From assembly GCA_022616415.1 (NCBI GenBank), contig JAKEEU010000031.1:1-64000 (forward strand): DNA of 64,000 nucleotides. Reading direction: 5' to 3'. The stretch is from Candidatus Zhuqueibacterota bacterium (GTDB taxonomy: Bacteria > Zhuqueibacterota > Zhuqueibacteria > Zhuqueibacterales > Zhuqueibacteraceae). A model generated the notes under the pieces. The model did no database searches, was not told the DNA's origin, and was given only the letters and a program-made list of their open reading frames with translations. Shown piece by piece: positions 48,316-60,338 of this stretch (position 1 is the stretch's first letter; each line of letters opens with the position of its first letter). The position numbers and the translations under genes are program-made.

Positions 48316-50073
48316 TCAATTGATGACGACGAATTTCGTCGTCGCATGAAAACCTTCGACGAGCAGGCGGAGAAAATAAACGCCGCTGGCAACGCGCTCG
48401 CCGGATTGGTCCAGGCCGTCCCAGATCACCCGCTGCAGGCCGGCCGGCAGCGTGCCCAAATTCATCTTCCAGATCACCCGGCCGTCTTCGCGCAACAACA
48501 CCGCCTCCACTTTCGCGCTTTCACGAATGCGAAATGGCACCACCAGCGGCCTGCCGTTGTTGTAGCGGAATGGATTCGGATAAGGTTTTTCAAGTGCATT
48601 GACCAATTCCTGTTGGCCGAGGCGCGAGACTTCCAATTGATAGCTGGCCGCCTGCGCCGCCGGCAAAGAGTTAGCGTGAACAACCATGAAAACAACCGTA
48701 TCTTCCCCAGCCGGCGCTTGTACCTCGAACGAGGCGAATCCGGTACCGCTTTGCTTGGAATAACCCTGCGTGCGATCTCCGGAAATCGTCGTGATTTTCC
48801 AAAGCGCCGCCTCGCTGCTGGACACGGAGGGCTGCAAGAAAAATCGGACATCCTGCCCGAGGCGAGCGGCGCGATAAACGTGGATAGCCATCGGGGGCAA
48901 ACTCGCAGTAATCACCGTATCCTGATTCACGCGAAAAGATTTGGGGCGTCCGTCGGCTTGTGTGCCAAAATCGATTGGGGGATAAGTTTTCGCCTCTTCA
49001 AAATATTGCACCGTATCAGCGCGGGCGCCGGTAAAAAAACACCATTCGCCAAATTCGCGCAACGCCTCGCTGAAAGGCAAAGCATAGCCGGATGATTCCA
49101 AAACCGTTTTCATGCCCGCCAAGGCCGGCTCCACCGTCGATCTTTGCCAGAAATCATACACGACGTTGTTGCGGAAGCGAAAACGTTCGGGGCCGAGCTT
49201 CTTGACCAAATAGTGCAGCCATATACAGGCGCCGTATTCGTGCCAACCATTCGCGCTATTGAGCGGGAGGCCGAACGTCTGAAAAAAGCCGAACGGCAGG
49301 CTGCGGCGGTTCAGCAGATAAGCGATGTAGTCATTCACGTAATCGTAAGCAACGTCTTCAAACCAGGTCGAGGACATTTCAAAGAAAAAGCTGTCGCCAT
49401 TGATGTTGCGAACGTTGAGCTGAACGGCATGAAAGTATTCGTGCGCCACCGTGACACGCAGAGCATGAACGCCAGTGGTGTAAAATCCGTTGAAATCATT
49501 TTCAATGGTAATATAAGCCGGACCGCGGGTTTGGCCAGTCTCGAACTCCGGCCAAGTGGCGCCATACGCCTGATCATTCTGAAAATAAAAATCGAGTGCC
49601 GGGTCGTCAACGTTGTCATCCGCGTGCGGCAAAAATCCCAGAGAATCGATGAGAAGATGATAGGCGCGCTCGGCGGCCAAACCGGCTTCGTACACGTAAT
49701 CAGGCACATTCAATTGGATCGTCGAAGTGGAGTTTACCGCATCGGGGCCGGTGAGTGTATAATGAAATTTAAAGCGCCCGCTCGGCGTCGTGTAGGAAAA
49801 TGGGAGCGTTGGCCGCTGCAGCTTGGCTTTCGCCAAAGCCGGGAACTGCGCAGCCAAAGACGGATCTGCCTGCAGAAGCGCTATTGCGGTAAAGCCGCAT
49901 TTGATCGGCTGCTCCAGCTCCCCGCGCAGCGCCATCTCATACTGTTGCAAAATTTGGCGCGCCTCGACGGCCTGCCCTTCGGACCTCAAGGTCTGGGTAG
50001 TCTGTCCATATACCACAGCCAAATTGAAACAAACGACGGCAATCGTGTCGATGAGAAAAATAATCTTTTTCAT
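48316..50073 (-). CDS. Secreted zinc metalloprotease-like protein with T9SS-type sorting domain
   Basis: 585 residues. Signal peptide 1-23; a central region with HExxH (RVTVAHEYFHAVQLN) near residue 218 in the style of MXAN_6640-type putative metalloproteases; aromatic-rich segment after it; and a C-terminal sorting domain of about 80 residues (KPYPNPFRYNNGRPLVVPF, then ASGVYFLRLLVEGFHATTKF). Likely secreted to the surface or medium by the type IX route. Start ATG 50073 shares one base with the der stop (TAATG). Substrate unknown. Confidence 0.82.
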   Translation of the reverse strand: MKKIIFLIDTIAVVCFNLAVVYGQTTQTLRSEGQAVEARQILQQYEMALRGELEQPIKCGFTAIALLQADPSLAAQFPALAKAKLQRPTLPFSYTTPSGRFKFHYTLTGPDAVNSTSTIQLNVPDYVYEAGLAAERAYHLLIDSLGFLPHADDNVDDPALDFYFQNDQAYGATWPEFETGQTRGPAYITIENDFNGFYTTGVHALRVTVAHEYFHAVQLNVRNINGDSFFFEMSSTWFEDVAYDYVNDYIAYLLNRRSLPFGFFQTFGLPLNSANGWHEYGACIWLHYLVKKLGPERFRFRNNVVYDFWQRSTVEPALAGMKTVLESSGYALPFSEALREFGEWCFFTGARADTVQYFEEAKTYPPIDFGTQADGRPKSFRVNQDTVITASLPPMAIHVYRAARLGQDVRFFLQPSVSSSEAALWKITTISGDRTQGYSKQSGTGFASFEVQAPAGEDTVVFMVVHANSLPAAQAASYQLEVSRLGQQELVNALEKPYPNPFRYNNGRPLVVPFRIRESAKVEAVLLREDGRVIWKMNLGTLPAGLQRVIWDGLDQSGERVASGVYFLRLLVEGFHATTKFVVIN

Positions 50074-51413
50074 TACTTTTTCCGAAAACTAAGCGTGAGT
50101 GGCACGCCCGCAAATCCGAAGCGGGCGCGGAAACGGTTTTCCAAATATTGCCGGTAATTCGCCCGAATCGCAGTCGGGTGATTGCAAAAAAAAGCGATCA
50201 CCGGCGGCGCGTGCTTGACTTGCGTGCAGTATTTGATCTTGACTTCGCGCTGCTCCATCGACGGCGGCGGGTAGTTGCGAACGGCCTCTTGCAGAAACTC
50301 ATTCAAATCTGCCGTGCGCAATTGTTTTTGCCGCTCGCGATGCACCGTCAGCGCCACGTCGAGCAATTTGAACACGCGCTGCTTGGTGACCGCCGAAATA
50401 AACAATATAGGCACATAACTGTAAATGCGCAACGCCTCGCGCAGCTCTTTTTCAAGCCCTTTCGCGGTCAAGGCATCTTTCTCGATGAGATCCCATTTGT
50501 TGACGCCGATGATGAGGCCTTTTTGCAATTTAGCCGCTTCGCTGACGATGTGCAAATCCTGATCGACCGCCTGCTCGAGTGCATCGAACAACACAATCGC
50601 AACATCGCAGCGGCGAATACTATCGCGCGTGCGCACCGTGCTGTAAAACTCAATCGACTCTTTGACCCGCGAGGTTTTGCGCAAGCCGGCGGTGTCGATG
50701 AGCACGATCTCCTGCTCTTTGTAACGCAAGCGTGTGTCAATTGCATCCCGCGTCGTTCCCGGAATAGCGGTGACGATCACTTGCTCGTGCCCAAGCACGG
50801 CGTTGACCAAAGAAGACTTGCCAACATTGGGCCGGCCGATCACCGCCAAGCGCAGCGTCTCGACTGGCTCGCTTTTGTCTTCCTCATCAATGCTCGGCTG
50901 GCGTTTTGCCGAAGCCGGCAGTAGTGCCACGAGGCGATCCAGAAAATCACCTATTTGCCGGCCGCTCGCGGCGGAAATCGACACGGGATCACCGAGGCCG
51001 AGATTATAGAAATCCGCCAGCCCCGGCTCGTGTTGCGTATCGTCGATCTTGTTAACCGCCAACAACAATTTTTTCTCGCTGCGGCGCAGAATGCGCGCGA
51101 TCTCCGCGTCCGTCGCCGTCACACCGGTTTGCGCATCCACCACGAAGATCACCGCTTCCGCCTCCTCGATGGCGTCGTACACCTGCCGGAGCACGGCCTG
51201 GTCGATTATATTTTGGCTGTCGCTAAAATAGCCGCCGGTATCCATGAGCGTAAACTCGTAGCCCACCCAATCCGCTTCCGCATAATTGCGGTCGCGCGTC
51301 ACGCCCGGCGTCTCGTGCACAATCGCCTCGCGCTTGCGAATGATGCGGTTGAACAAGGTCGACTTGCCGACATTAGGCCGGCCAATGATGGCGACGAGGG
51401 GTTTCTTTTTCAT
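50073..51413 (-). CDS. der: Ribosome biogenesis GTPase Der
   Basis: 446 residues with two tandem G domains: GRPNVGKSTLFNRI with DTGGYF, NKID; and GRPNVGKSSLVNAV with DTAGLRK, NKWD; then the KH-like C-terminal domain. Der acts in 50S assembly. Its start overlaps the stop of the retropepsin-like gene upstream by 4 bases, so the housekeeping gene is transcriptionally coupled to the accessory array. Confidence 0.97.
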   Translation of the reverse strand: MKKKPLVAIIGRPNVGKSTLFNRIIRKREAIVHETPGVTRDRNYAEADWVGYEFTLMDTGGYFSDSQNIIDQAVLRQVYDAIEEAEAVIFVVDAQTGVTATDAEIARILRRSEKKLLLAVNKIDDTQHEPGLADFYNLGLGDPVSISAASGRQIGDFLDRLVALLPASAKRQPSIDEEDKSEPVETLRLAVIGRPNVGKSSLVNAVLGHEQVIVTAIPGTTRDAIDTRLRYKEQEIVLIDTAGLRKTSRVKESIEFYSTVRTRDSIRRCDVAIVLFDALEQAVDQDLHIVSEAAKLQKGLIIGVNKWDLIEKDALTAKGLEKELREALRIYSYVPILFISAVTKQRVFKLLDVALTVHRERQKQLRTADLNEFLQEAVRNYPPPSMEQREVKIKYCTQVKHAPPVIAFFCNHPTAIRANYRQYLENRFRARFGFAGVPLTLSFRKK

Positions 51414-52288
51414 GAGGATGCTGCAAGGATTTTCGTCGTGCGATTGCCACCATCTAATTCGATACGCAATGGAAGCTCATATAATAAATTGCGGCCAACC
51501 AAAGCTTTGCGGACAGGGTTGACTAAACAGAGCGGACTTTGCTGCCAGTCGCGAATGCAAATAGCGGACATAATTCTCGAGATTACTTTCCCAGTCTCAT
51601 CAGCTATCGCGACTTGAACCGGTAAAACATAGCATTTATATGGTAGTCCAAAGTGTTTGCCAGACTCCGTCTCTTTGCCATATTGGTTCTCAAGTATATT
51701 TTTACTACGCATCAGGCTATAATCCAACATTATGTTTCCTGAGCCTGTATCAAGGTCGGCATCAAACTTGAGGCCTCTCTTCATGATGTCCTCCTGATTC
51801 CAATTTTCCGCACCAAACGCTATCGAAAGGCTCGGATAAAAATCATTATCAGCAACCGCAGCCCAATAAGATTCTTCAATTACAGGATTTGCAATAAAGG
51901 TCCATGGTGCATACCCCATCTGTCTGCCTATCGCATGTCTTTTTTCACGAGAGGGATAGTCATCAAGTGTTGGTGACCATTCAATGATTTCCCCTTTACA
52001 AATTAGCATCCATCTCGCGCGACGCTTGGCAAGCTCATGGTAAATCCAATCACGATATTTTTCATAAGCCATGAGCTTTAATTCTTCTCCTTCCTCGTCG
52101 GAGAGGGCAAGATAATCCTCGAAAGAAATCAAATACTTCTCATCCTCGAGCAAAGTTTTGGGGGATGTAGAAACTTTGGGTTTGTGCTTTTCGCGTGTTA
52201 GTTGCTTTTCAACAACCTCAAGCTCTTCGGGACGCAGCTTGCCCAAAGTCTTAAGAACTTGTTCAAGACCTGTTTCGGCGATAATCAT
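51410..52288 (-). CDS. Retropepsin-like family protein, full-length paralogue P1
   Basis: 292 residues, two parts. Residues 1-155 form the shared N-terminal module: LEQVLKTLGKLRPEELEVVE, ISFEDYLALSDEEGEE, a KYRDWIYHELAKRRARWMLI helix-strand segment, the EWSPTLDDYPSREK stretch and ANPVIEES. Residues 170-285 look like a clan-AA aspartic protease: ADLDTGSGNIML with D180-T-G-S and, 80 residues later, ALVGRNLLYELPLRIELDG, as in retropepsin-type domains where G-R-D/N follows two hydrophobics. One DTG per chain implies a dimer. AAGGAGGTC precedes ATG 52288 and overlaps the tail of copy P2. Function unknown; the protease assignment is motif-based. Confidence 0.7.
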   Translation of the reverse strand: MIIAETGLEQVLKTLGKLRPEELEVVEKQLTREKHKPKVSTSPKTLLEDEKYLISFEDYLALSDEEGEELKLMAYEKYRDWIYHELAKRRARWMLICKGEIIEWSPTLDDYPSREKRHAIGRQMGYAPWTFIANPVIEESYWAAVADNDFYPSLSIAFGAENWNQEDIMKRGLKFDADLDTGSGNIMLDYSLMRSKNILENQYGKETESGKHFGLPYKCYVLPVQVAIADETGKVISRIMSAICIRDWQQSPLCLVNPVRKALVGRNLLYELPLRIELDGGNRTTKILAASS

Positions 52289-52761
52289 GTCGACCTCCTT
52301 ATATCAGGGTAAAAGTCGTTTTTCGGAAGCGCAGCCCATGAGGATTCTTCAATAACTGGATTGGCAACAAAGACAAAGGGAACCCGATCGAATTGACGAC
52401 CGATCTTATAAAGTTTATCTCGTGAAGGATATTCATCTAGCGTTTCACCAGTTTCAATAACATCTCCACCGACTACGAGCATCCATTCTGCCTCACGACG
52501 TTCCAATTCTTCATCGATCCAAGCTCGATATTTTGAGTAGGCAGAGATATGGATGGAATCCCGCTCATCATCCGTTAATGCCAGATACTCATCAAATGAA
52601 ATCTTGAAGATCACGTCATCCAGCGATGTTGCAGGCAAAATTTGGGGAGACTTTTTAATCGACTTTTCAAGTAGCCGCTCCCGAATAATTTCACGGCCTT
52701 CTGGTGGCAATGCTTCAATTGTTTGCCAGATTTGCTCGACATCTGTTTCGACGATGGACAT
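52285..52761 (-). CDS. Truncated paralogue P2, N-terminal module only
   Basis: 158 residues matching P1 and P4 up to ANPVIEESSWAALPKNDFYP, where the protease part would begin; it then ends in DIRRST, coded by the sequence that also serves as the ribosome-binding site of P1. The module (ISFDEYLALTDDERDSIHIS, KYRAWIDEELERREAEWMLV, ETGETLDEYPSRDK) is intact and without stops, so it may act alone or regulate the full-length forms; it could equally be decaying. ATG 52761. Confidence 0.65.
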   Translation of the reverse strand: MSIVETDVEQIWQTIEALPPEGREIIRERLLEKSIKKSPQILPATSLDDVIFKISFDEYLALTDDERDSIHISAYSKYRAWIDEELERREAEWMLVVGGDVIETGETLDEYPSRDKLYKIGRQFDRVPFVFVANPVIEESSWAALPKNDFYPDIRRST

Positions 52762-52784
52762 AAATGCCTCATAAGAATTAAAAG

Positions 52785-53225
52785 TTAAACAATAGCCGCC
52801 CTCTGCGACTCTTCAATAAGTGGATTCGCCATAAAGACAAACGGCGCGTAACCGGATTGCATGCCTATAGCCTCCATTTTCTCATCTGAGGGGTAATCGT
52901 TAAGCTTTGGAGACCATTCAAGAATTTTTCCGCCACATACAAGCATCCATCGCGCCTGGAGCCGTGCGAGTTCTTCGTCAATCCAACTGCGGTATTTGCC
53001 ATACCCATAAAGTTGGATGTTGTCACGCGCGTCGTCCGAGAGCGCAAGATAATCTTCAAAAGGCATTAAAAACGTTTCGTCATCAACCAGTGTCTTGGGC
53101 GGAAAGGAACGCCGGCTGTGTTTTTTCAAATTCGCAATGTGTTCTTCAACCAACCAAAGCTCATCCGGACGTAATTTGTCCAACGTCTGTAAAATTTCTT
53201 CAAGGTCGATTTTGACTCTCATCAT
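52785..53225 (-). CDS. Truncated paralogue P3, N-terminal module only
   Basis: 146 residues from ATG 53225, chosen because GGAGG lies 5 bases before it; ATG 53237 is upstream of that site. The module matches P1 closely: LEEILQTLDKLRPDELWLVE, MPFEDYLALSDDARDNIQLY, SWIDEELARLQARWMLVCGG, EWSPKLNDYPSDEK, and it stops after NPLIEESQRAAIV, a few residues before the truncation point of P2. No protease part follows. First gene of the P3-P2-P1-der run. Confidence 0.65.
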   Translation of the reverse strand: MMRVKIDLEEILQTLDKLRPDELWLVEEHIANLKKHSRRSFPPKTLVDDETFLMPFEDYLALSDDARDNIQLYGYGKYRSWIDEELARLQARWMLVCGGKILEWSPKLNDYPSDEKMEAIGMQSGYAPFVFMANPLIEESQRAAIV

Positions 53226-53271
53226 CTTGACCTCCATAACTTAGACAAGCCGGAACCAAATAGAATTTTCC

Positions 53272-54531: not shown

Positions 54532-55893
54532 TCATAATAGTATTTCATGGATACGAAGATAAATATTACCTGTTTGAGCGGCGTGGCGTCGTTTTCTCAA
54601 TAGAAGCTGAATCAAGTCTATCCGTCCCTCAAGAACAGCCATCAAGTCGCTACCGTCCATTAAAATCATCAAGCGTCTACCCGATGAGTGTGTTTTAACA
54701 GCATCTTCGGAAAAGCTGTTAATCGACAAGAACAGGCCAAGCGTGTTATCGAGTTTTCTTGAAAGTTTTCCCGCAAAATGGTCAAGTTCGTCTGCTCCAA
54801 CCGGCTGTTGCTGCCACTTTGCTTCAAAGAGATAATCAGTGCTGTCAAAAGTAAAGGCACCGTCGATTTGTTCTCCAACAATTTTAAATGAAGCTTTAGG
54901 ATCTAGATCAAAAAGAGAAAAAAGTTCGTTTATAATTCTTTCCAATTTATAACCTCGTCCTTGAGGATCTTCCGAACTCAGCAACAAATAATATTCTTGA
55001 GTTAGTCTCTCAAGTTTTTCTTTGACCGCAGTAGTTCGTAAAAGCGCCTCATAAGTCGCACGCCGTCGTTCCTCTATTTTCTTTTGTTCAGTGTGCAATT
55101 CTTCATGAATGGCAACGAGTTTCCTAAGTGCTTCGACTGAAGCCTTTGCCTGCCTAGCCTTTTCCTGACCGTCTTCCAAACGGACCAAATGACTGAAATC
55201 GTCAATTAGAGCCACCTCACTCATGAGTCTCAGTAAGTCCGTTAGATACTCGTCCTGATGAGTAGCCAAAGTATCAACTACTGTTGTGACAATATTTCGT
55301 TTATAATCGTTCCAGTTTAGTCGTGTCAAAATCGCGGGATTACCCAAAGTAGTTGTTAGAAAGCTTCTTAGGTCGGCTTTATACCAATAGATGTTGGTAA
55401 GTGCCTCCTTTAAGGCCACGATAGCTGCAGGTGCTATTCTTTTAGGCATAAAGCTATACTCCTGAGAGTTTAATTGATCTAACGTACCTCTTAAAACAGC
55501 CTTACAAATTTGTTGTGCTACATATTTAATGCCACGGCTAGTAGAGACAGCTACTCTATCTGCAAGAGTCGGAGAATGGTGCCTAACTTCTTCTATGGTA
55601 ATATTATGCCATATTGGTAAAATGACTTTTTCGCCGACACTTTCTTTTGCTATGAGTCCATCAAGTTCCTTTTTCGGCCATTCTTTTCTAAAAAACGCGG
55701 TGCTAAGAATTACCAATCCAAACTTAGATTCTGACAATCCTTTATCAATGCTTCGACGGAGGCTGTCGCCAATCGTTAATTCGAAGTCATCAAACCATAC
55801 TTTAAGACCAAATCTCTTTAATTCCATGACCAGTGGATTTACTACCTCGGGCTTATCTTCGCTGGCATGGCATATAAAAACGTCATATCTCAT
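54532..55893 (-). CDS. TIR domain protein with C-terminal PD-(D/E)XK nuclease-like domain
   Basis: 453 residues. TIR domain at 1-135: YDVFICHASEDKPEVVNPLV, LKVWFDDFELTIGDSLRRSI, with the NADase-type catalytic Glu E76 in EWPKKELDGL. A helical middle (150-305: ALTNIYWYKADLRSFLTTTL, coiled-coil to 300) leads to a restriction-endonuclease-like domain with D344 in GEQIDGAF and E357-x-K359 in DYLFEAKW. TIR plus REase architecture recalls anti-phage proteins that sense infection and then deplete NAD or cut nucleic acid; activity here is not shown. Lower GC than the neighbours and located amid repeat-bounded cargo suggest transfer. Confidence 0.82.
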   Translation of the reverse strand: MRYDVFICHASEDKPEVVNPLVMELKRFGLKVWFDDFELTIGDSLRRSIDKGLSESKFGLVILSTAFFRKEWPKKELDGLIAKESVGEKVILPIWHNITIEEVRHHSPTLADRVAVSTSRGIKYVAQQICKAVLRGTLDQLNSQEYSFMPKRIAPAAIVALKEALTNIYWYKADLRSFLTTTLGNPAILTRLNWNDYKRNIVTTVVDTLATHQDEYLTDLLRLMSEVALIDDFSHLVRLEDGQEKARQAKASVEALRKLVAIHEELHTEQKKIEERRRATYEALLRTTAVKEKLERLTQEYYLLLSSEDPQGRGYKLERIINELFSLFDLDPKASFKIVGEQIDGAFTFDSTDYLFEAKWQQQPVGADELDHFAGKLSRKLDNTLGLFLSINSFSEDAVKTHSSGRRLMILMDGSDLMAVLEGRIDLIQLLLRKRRHAAQTGNIYLRIHEILL

Positions 55894-55951: not shown

Positions 55952-56119
55952 CTAACTTGAAATCTCCGGCTCTGCCTCAAAACTTTTAACCGTCTCAACC
56001 GCCGAAATTCTCCCAAACTTCAAAAACTCGAAAATCCCGCCAAAATCATTCTTCAATGGCACGACCGGCACGCCGAGCTTGTCTTGCATCTCGGTGAGCT
56101 TCCAATCGTCGAGAAAAAC
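55952..56119 (-). repeat. DUF512-gene 3'-end direct repeat, copy 3
   Basis: Encodes DDWKLTEMQDKLGVPVVPLK then NDFGGIFEFLKFGRISAVET and ends SFEAEPEISS stop (55952), the same C-terminal tail as the DUF512 gene at 58869. Homology ends near 56119, nine bases before the stop of the deacetylase-like gene (56129). No start codon: it is a tail without a gene. Confidence 0.85.
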
Positions 56120-56128
56120 ATCATGCTC

Positions 56129-57253
56129 TCATGCCTGCAAGAAACGCTTGCCGGCCTCGGCGATCGTGAGATATTCGATGCTGTCTTTCATCGCGTCGTG
56201 CTGCTCGACATACTCCAGCGCTTCGATCACCCGTTCAATATGTCCCAAAATCCGGCCGAATCGTGAGTCGCCGCCGGATTCAAGATGAAACCCGAGACTG
56301 AGATAAACTTCGGAGTTTTGTTGCGTGGCTAGCTCCATCGCCCGATGTATTTGTTCTTTCATATAATCGGCCTGAACATAGTCCGCCAGAATGGCGGTAT
56401 CGGGAATTTCGAGCAGTCTTTGAATCTTCCTCGGTTGCGCGGCAGTAACATCGTTTGCATGATCGTAAACATTGATCCCGCTGGGATAAGCCGATAGAAA
56501 AAGACGATTGGCCAAATAGGATGCTTCCGTCTGTTTTTTCGGTCCCCAAAGTTGAGCAAGCCAGTCATGCATCGTACCGCCGCCATTGGCAAAAAAGGAA
56601 GCATCCACCGCGGAAGCTTCGTATTGAAATAAGGGCTCAACCATTTGAACCGCAGCCAGAACTAAGTCGTTGGCCATCCAACCGCCACAGCGAAAGCTGA
56701 CACAATCGCCGCTGGATTGAATGATTTTATTTTCCACTAACAACACCCGGCATCTTTCCACCACCTGCTGGATTTCCTCTTGGCGGTATACTCCCAAGGG
56801 CACGCCATGACCATAATCGATTTTCTCTTCACCCGCATCATTCCGGTAAGGCACACACAGGCCATACCGGTTATTCTCTTGGGCTCCCCAATCAGGAATC
56901 GAGTGATCCCGCACCGGATCTTTTAGCGCGACGCCACAGACACGCATTAAGCTTATCCAGCAGTGAATATGTAATCCTATTTCACAGTTGCTTTCTTGAA
57001 CGAGTTGAGCGGTTTTGCCGGCATAATATTCCGCCAGCAAGTGGCTGCGCGTAAAGTAAACCGGACAAATGAAATGCGTTACAGGAATGCGATCCGCAAA
57101 TTTCCTATTGAAATACTTAATGGCCTGAATGCCACGATCAAAGCGAAAATGCGGCGAACCTGCCGGATTGTACGATTCATTTAAAGGATAGTCCAGACCA
57201 TCCCAATCGCACGTGACCGTGATAATCACCTTTCCATGTTTAGCTGGCAACAT
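56129..57253 (-). CDS. Polysaccharide deacetylase-like (NodB-like fold) protein
   Basis: 374 residues from ATG 57253. The start VTCDWDGLDYPLNESYNPAG and later FRFDRGIQAIKYFNRKFADR, VTHFICPVYFTRSHLLAEYY, EIGLHIHCWISLMRV, SFRCGGWMANDLVLA fit a divergent CE4 (NodB-homology) fold with D-W-D and H-x-H metal sites. The first 17 codons of the longer frame (from 57304) are tail copy 2, so the natural 5' end may have been lost or replaced; a GTG at 57229 is another candidate. Its stop lies nine bases before copy 3. Role unknown; deacetylases of this type modify surface polysaccharide. Confidence 0.7.
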   Translation of the reverse strand: MLPAKHGKVIITVTCDWDGLDYPLNESYNPAGSPHFRFDRGIQAIKYFNRKFADRIPVTHFICPVYFTRSHLLAEYYAGKTAQLVQESNCEIGLHIHCWISLMRVCGVALKDPVRDHSIPDWGAQENNRYGLCVPYRNDAGEEKIDYGHGVPLGVYRQEEIQQVVERCRVLLVENKIIQSSGDCVSFRCGGWMANDLVLAAVQMVEPLFQYEASAVDASFFANGGGTMHDWLAQLWGPKKQTEASYLANRLFLSAYPSGINVYDHANDVTAAQPRKIQRLLEIPDTAILADYVQADYMKEQIHRAMELATQQNSEVYLSLGFHLESGGDSRFGRILGHIERVIEALEYVEQHDAMKDSIEYLTIAEAGKRFLQA

Positions 57254-57445
57254 CCGGCTCCGCCTCAAAACTTTTAACCTCCTCAAAAGCCGCAACTCTC
57301 CCAAACTTCAAAAACTCAAAAATGCCGCTAAAATCATTCTTCAACGGCACGACCGGCACGCCGAGCCTTTCCTGCATCTCGGTGAGCTTCCAATCATCGA
57401 GGAAAATCTGCTTGTCGTTCAGGCAGCTTTTCGGCAGGAAAACCG
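57240..57445 (-). repeat. DUF512-gene 3'-end direct repeat, copy 2
   Basis: Reads VFLPKSCLNDKQIFLDDWKL, TEMQERLGVPVVPLKNDFSG and IFEFLKFGRVAAFEEVKSFE, ending EAEPDVAS stop at 57240. It begins next to the TAA of the VapC remnant (57448). Nucleotide similarity to the DUF512 3' end is obvious through the whole 206 bases. Confidence 0.88.
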
Positions 57446-57447
57446 CC

Positions 57448-57510
57448 TTATTCAAAAGGATTGAACAACTGAATATCACAATCATCGAAATCACGGGCAT
57501 TTCGCGAGCG
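57448..57510 (-). pseudogene. C-terminal remnant of a VapC (PIN) toxin
   Basis: The frame 57510-57448 reads RSRNARDFDDCDIQLFNPFE stop. The pattern TRN-x2-DF-x3-G/C-x2-x-x-NP-F/W is the very end of PIN-domain VapC toxins, including the last conserved Asp. Nothing of the preceding 110 or so residues remains; the antitoxin gene stops 15 bases upstream. The toxin was deleted except for its last 20 codons. Confidence 0.6.
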
Positions 57511-57525
57511 TCAGATAAAGATACT

Positions 57526-57807
57526 TCATTCGGCTATCTCGAGCATGGCGTTGGGTCGATCCCGGTGGGTTGGCGCCTCAATCTCGACAGGTTCAGACTT
57601 GTGGATTTCACGCAACTCATCCAGAAGCTCGGCAATGGTCGGTCGAGCTTGGCGGGCGCGAAGATTCATCAGTTGATTAAAAAGGTTGACGTCAACTACG
57701 ACGCTAACGGGTTTATTTTGCTCGTAAACGATTTGTGGCTCCTGCAAAGACGCGCGCACGATCTCCGCAAAGCGGTCTTTCACATCAGTTACAGTCGAAG
57801 TTCTCAT
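57526..57807 (-). CDS. Phd/YefM family antitoxin (orphan)
   Basis: 93 residues from ATG 57807 (RTSTVTDVKDRFAEIVRASL), then EPQIVYEQNKPVSVVVDVNL, the classical Phd fold with its dimerisation strands; the C-terminal half (RPTIAELLDELREI) is the toxin-binding helix. The toxin normally follows, but only a 20-codon VapC end is left, so this antitoxin is probably orphaned or protects against a toxin encoded elsewhere. The start codon was chosen over an ATG at 57822 because of the family start. Confidence 0.8.
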   Translation of the reverse strand: MRTSTVTDVKDRFAEIVRASLQEPQIVYEQNKPVSVVVDVNLFNQLMNLRARQARPTIAELLDELREIHKSEPVEIEAPTHRDRPNAMLEIAE

Positions 57808-57935
57808 AAGCACACCTCGCACTTTTGGTTATTCGCAATTACGTCTATCCGATTAAGCGGATGTCAACAAGAATATAATCAAACCTTCGGAGAACTTCAA
57901 GTTTCGCCAGATCAAGATGAAAGTTCTTGAGACAA

Positions 57936-58847
57936 TCAGTCGTCGAGTATTTGAGTCACTCTTCTTCGACCATCCAATTTAATCTGCAACTCCAGTTTTA
58001 TGCGCGTGTTCCGACCAACTAAAGCCTGGCGAGAGGGATTCGGCAAACGAAAGGGGCTTTTTACCCAACGGCGCACACAAAGTACATTGATGACCTCGGA
58101 AATCAATTTACCACCTTCGGTAATAACTCCCATTAAAACTGGCAGAGGGTAGTAGTCAAAAGGGTGCCCCAAATGAAAGCGGGTATTAAAACGAACGAGC
58201 CGCTGGCGTTTAACGATGCTCTGTTCCAACAATTGTTCATAATTCAGCAGAACATCAGGTGAACCAGTATCAAAATCAGCATGGATTGCTAAACCATTGT
58301 CAACGAGATCATGCGGAGACTGTTCTTTGTTGGCAACAATGATTGGAAGGCTTGGATAAAAATTATTGTAAGAAAGAGCTGCCCAATCCGATTCCTCAAT
58401 CATCGGGGCAGCCGCAAAGACAAAGGGGATCAAGCCATATTGCTCGCCAATCGCCTGCAATTTTTCATCTGTTGGGTAATTTTCCCAAGTCGGGCCAGAT
58501 TCAATAACTTTTCTGCCACAAACCAATATCCATTTGGCGTGATGCAGCTTTAGCATTTGATCAATCCAATCCAGATGATTTGCATACGCCTCTTCCTGAA
58601 TCGCGTCACGCTCTTCATCCGACATGGCCAGATATTCGTCAAATGTGATAGCAAAAATATCACGTGTGGCCGCTGGCAAAGCCGGAATCTGCGCGCCGCC
58701 CGAAAGGCTACGCCCGTCGGGGGCTTTTGAGCCGTTTTTCTTTTTCCGAGCCGAAGCGAGACGCTTTTCTATAAGATCAAGCTCGTCGGGGGCGAAATCA
58801 TCGATTGTTTCCAAAACCTGATCGAGGGTCGAATTTTTAGTTTCCAT
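57936..58847 (-). CDS. Retropepsin-like family protein, full-length paralogue P4
   Basis: 303 residues, the second full-length member. The N-terminal module has the same landmarks (LDQVLETIDDFAPDELDLIE, ITFDEYLAMSDEERDAIQEE, MLKLHHAKWILVCGRKVI, GPTWENYPTDEK, APMIEESDWAALSYNNFYPS) with an extra Ser/Gly/Pro linker at 36-60. The second part has HADFDTGSPDVLLNYEQL with D193-T-G-S and QALVGRNTRIKLELQIKLDG with VGRN at 277-280. Cysteines C110 and C257 are present. Adjacent to the orphan antitoxin and the DUF512 gene. P1 and P4 differ enough to be old duplicates. Function unknown. Confidence 0.7.
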   Translation of the reverse strand: METKNSTLDQVLETIDDFAPDELDLIEKRLASARKKKNGSKAPDGRSLSGGAQIPALPAATRDIFAITFDEYLAMSDEERDAIQEEAYANHLDWIDQMLKLHHAKWILVCGRKVIESGPTWENYPTDEKLQAIGEQYGLIPFVFAAAPMIEESDWAALSYNNFYPSLPIIVANKEQSPHDLVDNGLAIHADFDTGSPDVLLNYEQLLEQSIVKRQRLVRFNTRFHLGHPFDYYPLPVLMGVITEGGKLISEVINVLCVRRWVKSPFRLPNPSRQALVGRNTRIKLELQIKLDGRRRVTQILDD

Positions 58848-58868
58848 AACGGCCTCGTTTTAATATGG

Positions 58869-59076
58869 TTAATTTTGGAGATCGAATTCAACTTCCAAAG
58901 CCTTTGCTGTCTCAAAAGCCGAAATTCTTCCAAATTTCAAAAACTCAAAAATGCCGCTAAAATCATTCTTCAACGGCACGACCGGCACGCCGAGCTTGTC
59001 TTGCATCTCGGTGAGCTGCCAATCATCGAGAAAAATCTGCTTGTCGTTCAGGCAGCTTTTCGGCAGGAAAACCGCT
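58869..59076 (-). repeat. DUF512-gene 3'-end direct repeat, copy 1 (in the intact gene)
   Basis: The intact gene end: VFLPKSCLNDKQIFLDDWQL, TEMQDKLGVPVVPLKNDFSG, IFEFLKFGRISAFETAKALE and VEFDLQN. Copies 2 and 3 share the first parts almost unchanged and differ mainly in the last ten codons. Confidence 0.88.
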
Positions 59077-60215
59077 GCGCCGAGATCGCGCTCTTTCAGC
59101 GCCGCGAAAATATCCTGGCCCGTGAGCAAACCGGACACGCGGATCGTGTCGCCGTAGAACTTGTTGACGATGGTGATCAACTCCGGATCAAAATTTTTGA
59201 TCTGCCGCAAGCGCGGCAGAATGTGTTCGGCGAGAAAGCCGCCAGCCAAAGTCGCGGTCACGAGCGTGACTTTGGTTGGCTGCCGCAAACGTTTCGAAAG
59301 GCGCGCGGCTTGCTTATCATTGAAATCATCCAACAAATCACGCAGCATGCCGACGCCGTTTTCCATTTGCTCAAAAGCATCGTAGCGGCTCGCCGGCGGA
59401 ATCGGCTCTTCGGCCATGATGTAAAATTCATCGGAAGGATAAACGAAATGCGTTCCCAAACGCTGGCGAAACTCGGCGGCGTAATCGTCGGCGATGCGCA
59501 AAAACTGCTGCACATAAGCTTTCGTCACCGGCTTGATCGGCGTCAAGCCTTCGCGGTGCTTGGTCAAACCGACCGGCACGACGGCGACGCTGCGGAGGTG
59601 CGGGTAAAATCCGGCGAGATCCGAGAGCGTTTTGCGCAACACTTCGCCGTCATTAATTTCCGGACAAAGCACGATCTGCGTGTGCAGCTCGATGCCGTTT
59701 TGCGTGAGATAAGTGAATTTATCCAACAACCGGTCGTCGAATTTGATGCCGAGTAGAAATTGGCGCACCGCCGGTTCCGTAGCATGCACGGAAATAAACA
59801 ACGGCGTCAGCCGCTGGCGCACGATGCGCTCCAAATCGGCGCGCGACATGTTGCTGAGCGTGACGTAATGCCCGGAAAGAAACGACAACCGAAAATCCTC
59901 GTCGCGAAAATACATCGTCGAGCGCATGCCGGCCGGATTTTGATCGACGAAGCAAAAGATGCAATCGTTGCCGCAGCGGCGGATTTTCAGCGGCGCGAAA
60001 TTCACGCCGAGGCTGTCGTCAGTATCCTTTTCAATATCAAAAATAATATGCTCATCGCCATGACGGATTTCCATTTCAATCGCATCTTCGGCGGTGAGAA
60101 AGCGGTAATCGAGAATATCGCGCACCGGCTCGCCATTGATGCGCAGCACTTCGTCGCCTGGACACAGGCCTAGCTCGTGCCCGGTGCTGTTGTGGTCAAT
60201 TGTGATAATTTTCAC
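58869..60215 (-). CDS. DUF512 family PDZ/radical-SAM-like protein
   Basis: 448 residues from GTG 60215, where the PDZ-like start KIITIDHNSTGHELGLCPGD begins; upstream codons to 60287 lie in the GTCATTGCGAG repeat. Cysteines C81, C85, C88 (RRCGNDCIFCFVDQNP) fit a radical SAM 4Fe-4S site (CxxxCxxC), with SFLSGHYVTLSNM following as in this family, and the DUF512 domain fills the C-terminal half. The exact reaction is not known to me. Its last 68 codons (58869-59076) are the sequence repeated downstream as copies 2 and 3. Confidence 0.85.
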   Translation of the reverse strand: MKIITIDHNSTGHELGLCPGDEVLRINGEPVRDILDYRFLTAEDAIEMEIRHGDEHIIFDIEKDTDDSLGVNFAPLKIRRCGNDCIFCFVDQNPAGMRSTMYFRDEDFRLSFLSGHYVTLSNMSRADLERIVRQRLTPLFISVHATEPAVRQFLLGIKFDDRLLDKFTYLTQNGIELHTQIVLCPEINDGEVLRKTLSDLAGFYPHLRSVAVVPVGLTKHREGLTPIKPVTKAYVQQFLRIADDYAAEFRQRLGTHFVYPSDEFYIMAEEPIPPASRYDAFEQMENGVGMLRDLLDDFNDKQAARLSKRLRQPTKVTLVTATLAGGFLAEHILPRLRQIKNFDPELITIVNKFYGDTIRVSGLLTGQDIFAALKERDLGAAVFLPKSCLNDKQIFLDDWQLTEMQDKLGVPVVPLKNDFSGIFEFLKFGRISAFETAKALEVEFDLQN

Positions 60216-60257
60216 TGGGACTCGAAAATTGTATAACTTTAGCAGTCCGAAGAAGCC

Positions 60258-60338
60258 GTCATTGCGAGGCGTTTTTTGCCGAAGCAATCTTATACGCCCT
60301 CTCGAGAGATTGCTTCACTAGAAAACGCTCGCAATGAC
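60258..60338. repeat. GTCATTGCGAG-type interspersed inverted repeat
   Basis: GTCATTGCGAG (60258-60268) and its complement CTCGCAATGAC (60328-60338) bound an inner pair AAGCAATCT / AGATTGCTT (60282-60290, 60307-60315). This is the widespread GTCATTGCGAG...GCAATCTC element of many bacterial genomes. It lies between the DUF2268-like gene and the DUF512 gene start. Confidence 0.75.

Follow-up and report, generated by a model that had tools for sequence, protein, structure and literature searches.

Copies of core-gene ends bracket stacked accessory genes at the DUF512-der interval and at other loci of a Candidatus Zhuqueibacterota genome

In the genome of a Candidatus Zhuqueibacterota bacterium (GCA_022616415.1, designated G000 here), the interval between the gene for a DUF512 radical SAM protein and der is filled with accessory genes, and two truncated copies of the DUF512 3' end lie at seams between them. 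Similar orphan gene ends accompany other genes of the same genome, as well as ligA in a second MAG (G005), and the cargo across these loci comprises restriction-modification, TIR, HicAB and AlbA/Schlafen genes. We favour, with some reserve, the explanation that short donor fragments, each carrying a gene end and the neighbouring cargo, were end-joined and then recombined into the shared gene end, repeatedly; as part of the same model, the DUF512-der interval would probably represent an integrase-free insertion hotspot. Features of the window, i.e., the whole stretch of 64,000 nucleotides that was analysed, are collected in Table 1, and relatives are designated by G numbers.

Table 1. Features of the DUF512-der interval, in the order of their coordinates in the window
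Feature	Position	Strand	Basis or remark
der (EngA GTPase), far edge of the interval and conserved neighbour of DUF512 in relatives	50073..51413	-	Synteny
Three P4-family pieces adjoining der (51410-52288, 52285-52761, 52785-53237)	51410..53237	-	Family comparison
Cargo: TIR + Mrr-type nuclease domain protein	54532..55893	-	PF13676, PF04471; PADLOC TIR models
T3, orphan tail: shorter 5'-truncated copy of the DUF512 3' end, open frame	55952-56119	-	Identity to T1/T2
Cargo: deacetylase-like protein	56129..57253	-	60-71% identical homologues elsewhere in G001, G005, G006
T2, orphan tail: 5'-truncated copy of the DUF512 3' end, open frame	57240-57447	-	Identity to T1
Probable VapC remnant (toxin gene start and end, middle missing)	57448..57528	-	Read from sequence; stop abuts T2
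Cargo: Phd/YefM antitoxin	57526..57822	-	PF02604
Cargo: P4-family protein, function unassigned	57936..58847	-	~20 relatives in genome
T1, last 208 nt of the DUF512 gene	58869-59076	-	In-gene copy
Anchor: DUF512 / TIGR03279 radical SAM protein, full length	58869..60287	-	Pfam PF04459, PF19238, PDZ_6; TIGR03279

A sequence-only reading of the window had reported three copies of the DUF512 3' end in the same orientation, and all three were recovered at those positions, on the minus strand, when the direct repeats were recomputed. T1 and T2 share 94.5% identity over 165 nt (E 6.5e-69), T1 and T3 92% over 127 nt (E 6.1e-47), and T2 and T3 90% over 154 nt. The three are the only DUF512 tail copies in the whole 10.27-Mb assembly, where the full-length DUF512 gene and der occur once each, and in every copy the frame is open up to its stop. 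Over the last ~45 nt, T2 and T3 are similar and T1 differs strongly from both, such that the C-terminal peptide reads VKSFEAEPxxxS in T1 versus AKALEVEFDLQN in T2 and T3, each followed by the stop codon. At their 5' ends, T2 and T3 are truncated at places ~40 nt apart. All three tails are nearer to one another than to the sequence of the genus-mate G002. A scan of genome contigs for more DUF512 tails returned just one KSB1 locus, apparently the record of G006 itself. Separately, a palindromic-looking, non-coding short repeat (TGTCATTGCGAGCG...CGCAATGAC) is found at positions 60254-60338 of the window and at an unrelated place in G002 (L024:943-1028), and is probably a dispersed repeat.

The gap between T1 and T2 is occupied by the P4-family gene, the Phd antitoxin and the probable VapC remnant, and that between T2 and T3 by the deacetylase-like gene. 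The reported abutment of the tails on cargo stop codons also held: T2 lies 0-1 nt past the stop of the probable VapC remnant and T3 9 nt past that of the deacetylase-like gene, whose ATG falls within the final nucleotides of T2. Past T3 there follow the TIR-Mrr gene, an uncharacterised gene, a NUDIX gene, the three P4-family pieces and der. The TIR-Mrr protein is similar to defence proteins and likely has a role in defence. The putative VapC remnant measures ~80 nt, is broken across two frames and had no confirming database match. Neither Pfam, NCBIfam nor PADLOC yielded a match for the P4-family protein at 57936..58847; members of its family in this genome occur in part in tandem and some are partly truncated, and a P4-like C-terminal remnant is fused within an ORF of the DUF512-der gap in G006. 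The label "deacetylase-like" had no match among Pfam, NCBIfam or PDB sequences, and the structure model of the protein (pLDDT 53) was too poor for a structure search. Its homologues in G001, G005 and G006 lie at other loci, none of them with a DUF512 tail.

It had been proposed from the sequence that mobile cargo repeatedly entered a protein gene at its 3' end, restoring or duplicating that end, in the manner of tRNA-directed islands. The tails, together with empty DUF512-der sites in relatives, support repeated entry with duplication of the gene end, and the likeness to a site-specific element was not supported. A site-specific recombinase was absent from the ten main proteins between 52.8 and 62.7 kb (Pfam) and from the cargo (PADLOC, NCBIfam), and the att-like junction sites that had been envisaged have no core in common, T2 and T3 starting at different positions in the gene. 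An integrative element with its attachment site at the DUF512 3' end would explain a duplicated gene end beside an intact gene, as in the e14 prophage of icd, where integration into a protein gene duplicates the 3' end and leaves the gene intact by means of an integrase and one fixed site. Here, neither an integrase nor one fixed site was seen, and the phenomenon extends to many unrelated anchor genes and to a mirrored 5' end; we therefore regard an element of this kind as extremely unlikely. A diversity-generating retroelement (VR/TR) acting at DUF512 was likewise rejected, no reverse transcriptase being present among the cargo.

The empty site that the same reading suggested looking for exists, since DUF512 directly or nearly adjoins der in relatives, as opposed to the window, in which der starts at 51413, 7.4 kb past the DUF512 stop. 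The gap amounts to ~80-160 bp in four relatives (G004, G005, G009 and G012), to 435 bp in G002, which has a 126-aa gene there, and to 1.5-1.9 kb in G007 and G006, which have a gene for an AAA-type ATPase. The gap being variably filled across relatives, DUF512-der is a hotspot, and this genome has its fullest version among the relatives aligned. The same core-gene pair, the variable content and the lack of a mobility gene are all as in recombination hotspots free of mobile genetic elements.

Recurrence was assessed by self-comparison of 1.10 Mb of this genome (258 kb of the same contig plus further contigs), leaving out, by rule or by hand, template/variable pairs of diversity-generating retroelements (DGRs), intragenic repeats and paralogue tandems. 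In these ~1.1 Mb, about nine genes have their 3' end copied downstream and at least one (ligA) has its 5' end copied upstream, each being the side on which a copy has to lie for cargo to be bracketed. One tail copy, of 333 nt and 85% identity, belongs to an NtrC-like regulator and has as cargo a methylase of the Eco57I type and a PLD-like protein. Others belong to an RND transporter (219 nt, 90%; cargo, a response regulator and TIR), to recX (102 nt, 87%; HicA/HicB, with alaS beyond) and to a PALP-fold gene (146 nt, 78%), and the head copy of ligA spans 221 nt (92%; AlbA/Schlafen gene). The other 3'-end cases, in a few genes, are less well characterised. Comparable cases number at most one in 400 kb each of G002 and G004 plus 380 kb of contig C1 of G005; by a looser hand count the ratio is 12 versus 1, a rough comparison with a biased rate, as the choice of contigs was guided partly by matches to the P4 family and, for C78, by the finding itself. 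Identical repeats are often collapsed in short-read assembly, and very fresh events would thus escape such a scan. Outside the window, two DGR-looking loci (G000 contigs C78:149106-153223 and C325:70905-74957) combine a duplicated gene end with a four-helix-bundle (Avd-like) gene, the first of them alone having a reverse-transcriptase-like gene. Elsewhere on C78 (235432-237884), also outside the window, a stretch of 250-320 nt occurs three times, ~1 kb apart, and no parent gene of full length turned up in the DNA that was sampled.

Relatives show parts of these arrangements. The genes past the RND orphan are those that lie past RND in G001, and alaS comes next after the recX tails. The recX-alaS gap contains HicB-like sequence in G002, G003 and G006 and, in G006 and G007, another piece in common with this genome; an AlbA gene adjoins ligA in G005 and G006. 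Alleles borne singly by relatives thus appear to be strung together here, with a truncated anchor end at each seam. Fusion of the haplotypes of two co-occurring species during assembly or binning would also string together alternative alleles in this way, and the assembly is large (10.27 Mb in 466 contigs) with 8% contamination. We nevertheless consider such an artefact very improbable. The junctions join non-homologous sequence, with no common stretch for a k-mer assembler to follow, and full-length DUF512 and der are single-copy. Moreover, the orphans look aged: that of RND begins ~550 nt from the stop and has a ~300-nt internal deletion, and that of the PALP-fold gene contains stops, a difference in age which shows that the events were spread over some time. 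Finally, G005 has its own 138-nt ligA head copy, 94% identical and ~0.6 kb upstream of ligA; having arisen independently, and in a genome assembled separately, it counts against an artefact. For comparison, the genus mates of G000 have assemblies of 4.6 and 5.9 Mb; gene-end duplications could add to both the size and the contamination figure of G000.

The anatomy described here matches a published pattern, insertion with long target duplication, reported for restriction-modification genes in Helicobacter (Nobusato, Uchiyama, Ohashi and Kobayashi 2000, as cited in PMC1643837, PMC3031569 and PMC4978471). As described there, accessory genes lie between long, variable direct repeats of the target and are missing from the empty site (DUF512-der; RND in G001); restriction-modification cargo is present at the NtrC-like gene, in the form of the Eco57I-type methylase, and none was found at DUF512. 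Applied to this genome, the explanation would be that cargo entered the 3' part of a gene, with ~170-330 nt of target copied and diverging later. The proximity of the DUF512 tails to one another, for which monophyly was not rejected, would agree with it. The NtrC and RND copies, however, differ at the level of species, with most differences synonymous, a pattern not expected of an orphan left to drift freely, and we judge a true target duplication to be unlikely, though worth keeping in mind.

For NtrC, identity between the orphan and the resident gene is 84.7%, compared to 86.5% between the resident and G002 and 84.4% between the orphan and G001. For RND, the orphan and the resident are 84.8% identical, versus 83.8% for the resident and G001. 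Differences between the NtrC orphan and resident fall at codon positions 1, 2 and 3 in numbers of 10, 5 and 36, a pattern matching that between the resident and G002 (12, 4 and 29). When NtrC, RND, T2 and T3 are pooled, 69 of the 102 differences are at position 3 (p = 0.0002), against a null of at most about half if one copy drifted freely after duplication and the other was constrained; the pool is dominated by NtrC and RND, and T2 (5/9) and T3 (9/14) alone are not significant. Divergence at species level that is mostly synonymous argues for a donor orthologue rather than a decayed fresh copy, and the simplest reading for NtrC and RND is that both copies evolved as working genes in separate lineages before they came to adjoin. 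A weaker alternative is that an orphan kept a function, as the NtrC orphan might have done through its Fis-type DNA-binding segment.

Trees of the short tails are less decisive: in the AU test (IQ-TREE), monophyly of resident and orphan was not rejected for NtrC or DUF512, and duplication within the lineage is compatible with these tests, most of all for DUF512. FastTree grouped T1 with G002 (support 0.98), a grouping to which the AU test gives no firm backing. Sliding identity along the anchor genes revealed no clear mosaic breakpoint, and the search for a donor genome with the predicted single arrangement returned none. For DUF512, the strong divergence of T1 from T2 and T3 over the final 45 nt, together with the way the deacetylase-like gene begins within the end of T2, provides a hint that tail and following cargo may have arrived together.

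Tandem duplication of the anchor with later loss of its body, the alternative named in the sequence-only reading, found no direct support. Whole anchor genes, duplicated in tandem or acquired, could have lost their bodies by deletion; the ~300-nt gap within the RND orphan demonstrates that orphans shrink, and the tight abutment on stop codons could reflect trimming. Set against this, no relative has two full-length DUF512 genes, in tandem or otherwise, and the clear orphan tails are all short, even that of a 3-kb gene. Such a history seems quite improbable overall, if conceivable for DUF512.

Under the donor-fragment explanation, the fragments would come from co-occurring related lineages and carry the DUF512 end with whichever gene followed it in the donor. 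The most economical route would be end joining of the fragment to a circle, followed by one crossover within the shared gene end. The product would consist of the intact anchor, the cargo, a 5'-truncated copy of the anchor end with an arbitrary 5' boundary, and the old downstream DNA, with nothing lost. Repeated rounds would stack cargo units with orphan tails between them, and the mirror image at a gene start would leave orphan heads. For the DUF512 tails, donor origin is what we infer, as are the circle with its single crossover, the uptake of DNA and the joining of ends by Ku. Parts that could serve for uptake and end joining exist: of seven genomes checked, every one has Ku and six have a competence protein of the ComEC type. 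Ku and competence genes are common and prove nothing alone.

Steps of this kind have precedents. In E. coli, ligation of incoming linear DNA and a single crossover have been documented to result in insertion between copies of the homologous segment, and in classical homology-facilitated illegitimate recombination the recipient usually loses ~1 kb of its DNA (PMC3240628). Like the latter, the present loci would combine homology on one side with end joining on the other; unlike it, the downstream DNA is kept (RND versus G001; recX). The minimal mobile elements of Neisseria comprise varying accessory genes between conserved core neighbours, with no integrase. Integrase-free hotspots have been attributed to recombination at flanking core genes (2017, PMC5635113), and DUF512-der and recX-alaS resemble them in their conserved core neighbours, variable accessory genes and lack of an integrase. 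In those hotspots, a double crossover at both flanks swaps alleles cleanly, whereas here alleles are added and truncated ends are left behind.

Compared to what is known, the new elements are probably the orthologue-grade and likely donor-derived ends, the additive stacking, the use of both gene ends, and the defence and toxin-antitoxin cargo beyond restriction-modification. Two of the best cases differ from long target duplication, as far as it is described in the sources cited, in the orthologue-grade divergence of their ends and the signature of purifying selection, and the genome as a whole in its stacked units, its use of both gene ends and its cargo of mostly toxin-antitoxin, TIR and other defence-like genes. 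The 25-year-old puzzle of these duplications is thereby made testable, as donor-derived ends should match the orthologues of other species. The findings suggest a route by which defence genes could build up beside core genes without an integrase or transposase, and orphan gene ends would serve as countable fossils of capture, the anchor gene and the direction being readable from each. More tentatively, it is possible that members of this KSB1 family take up defence and toxin-antitoxin genes from sibling species as short fragments, recombined into core-gene ends by addition rather than replacement, and that this has helped to make the genome of one lineage about twice the size of those of its relatives. 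If so, stacking anchored at gene ends would also account for the long-unexplained long target duplications of restriction-modification genes.
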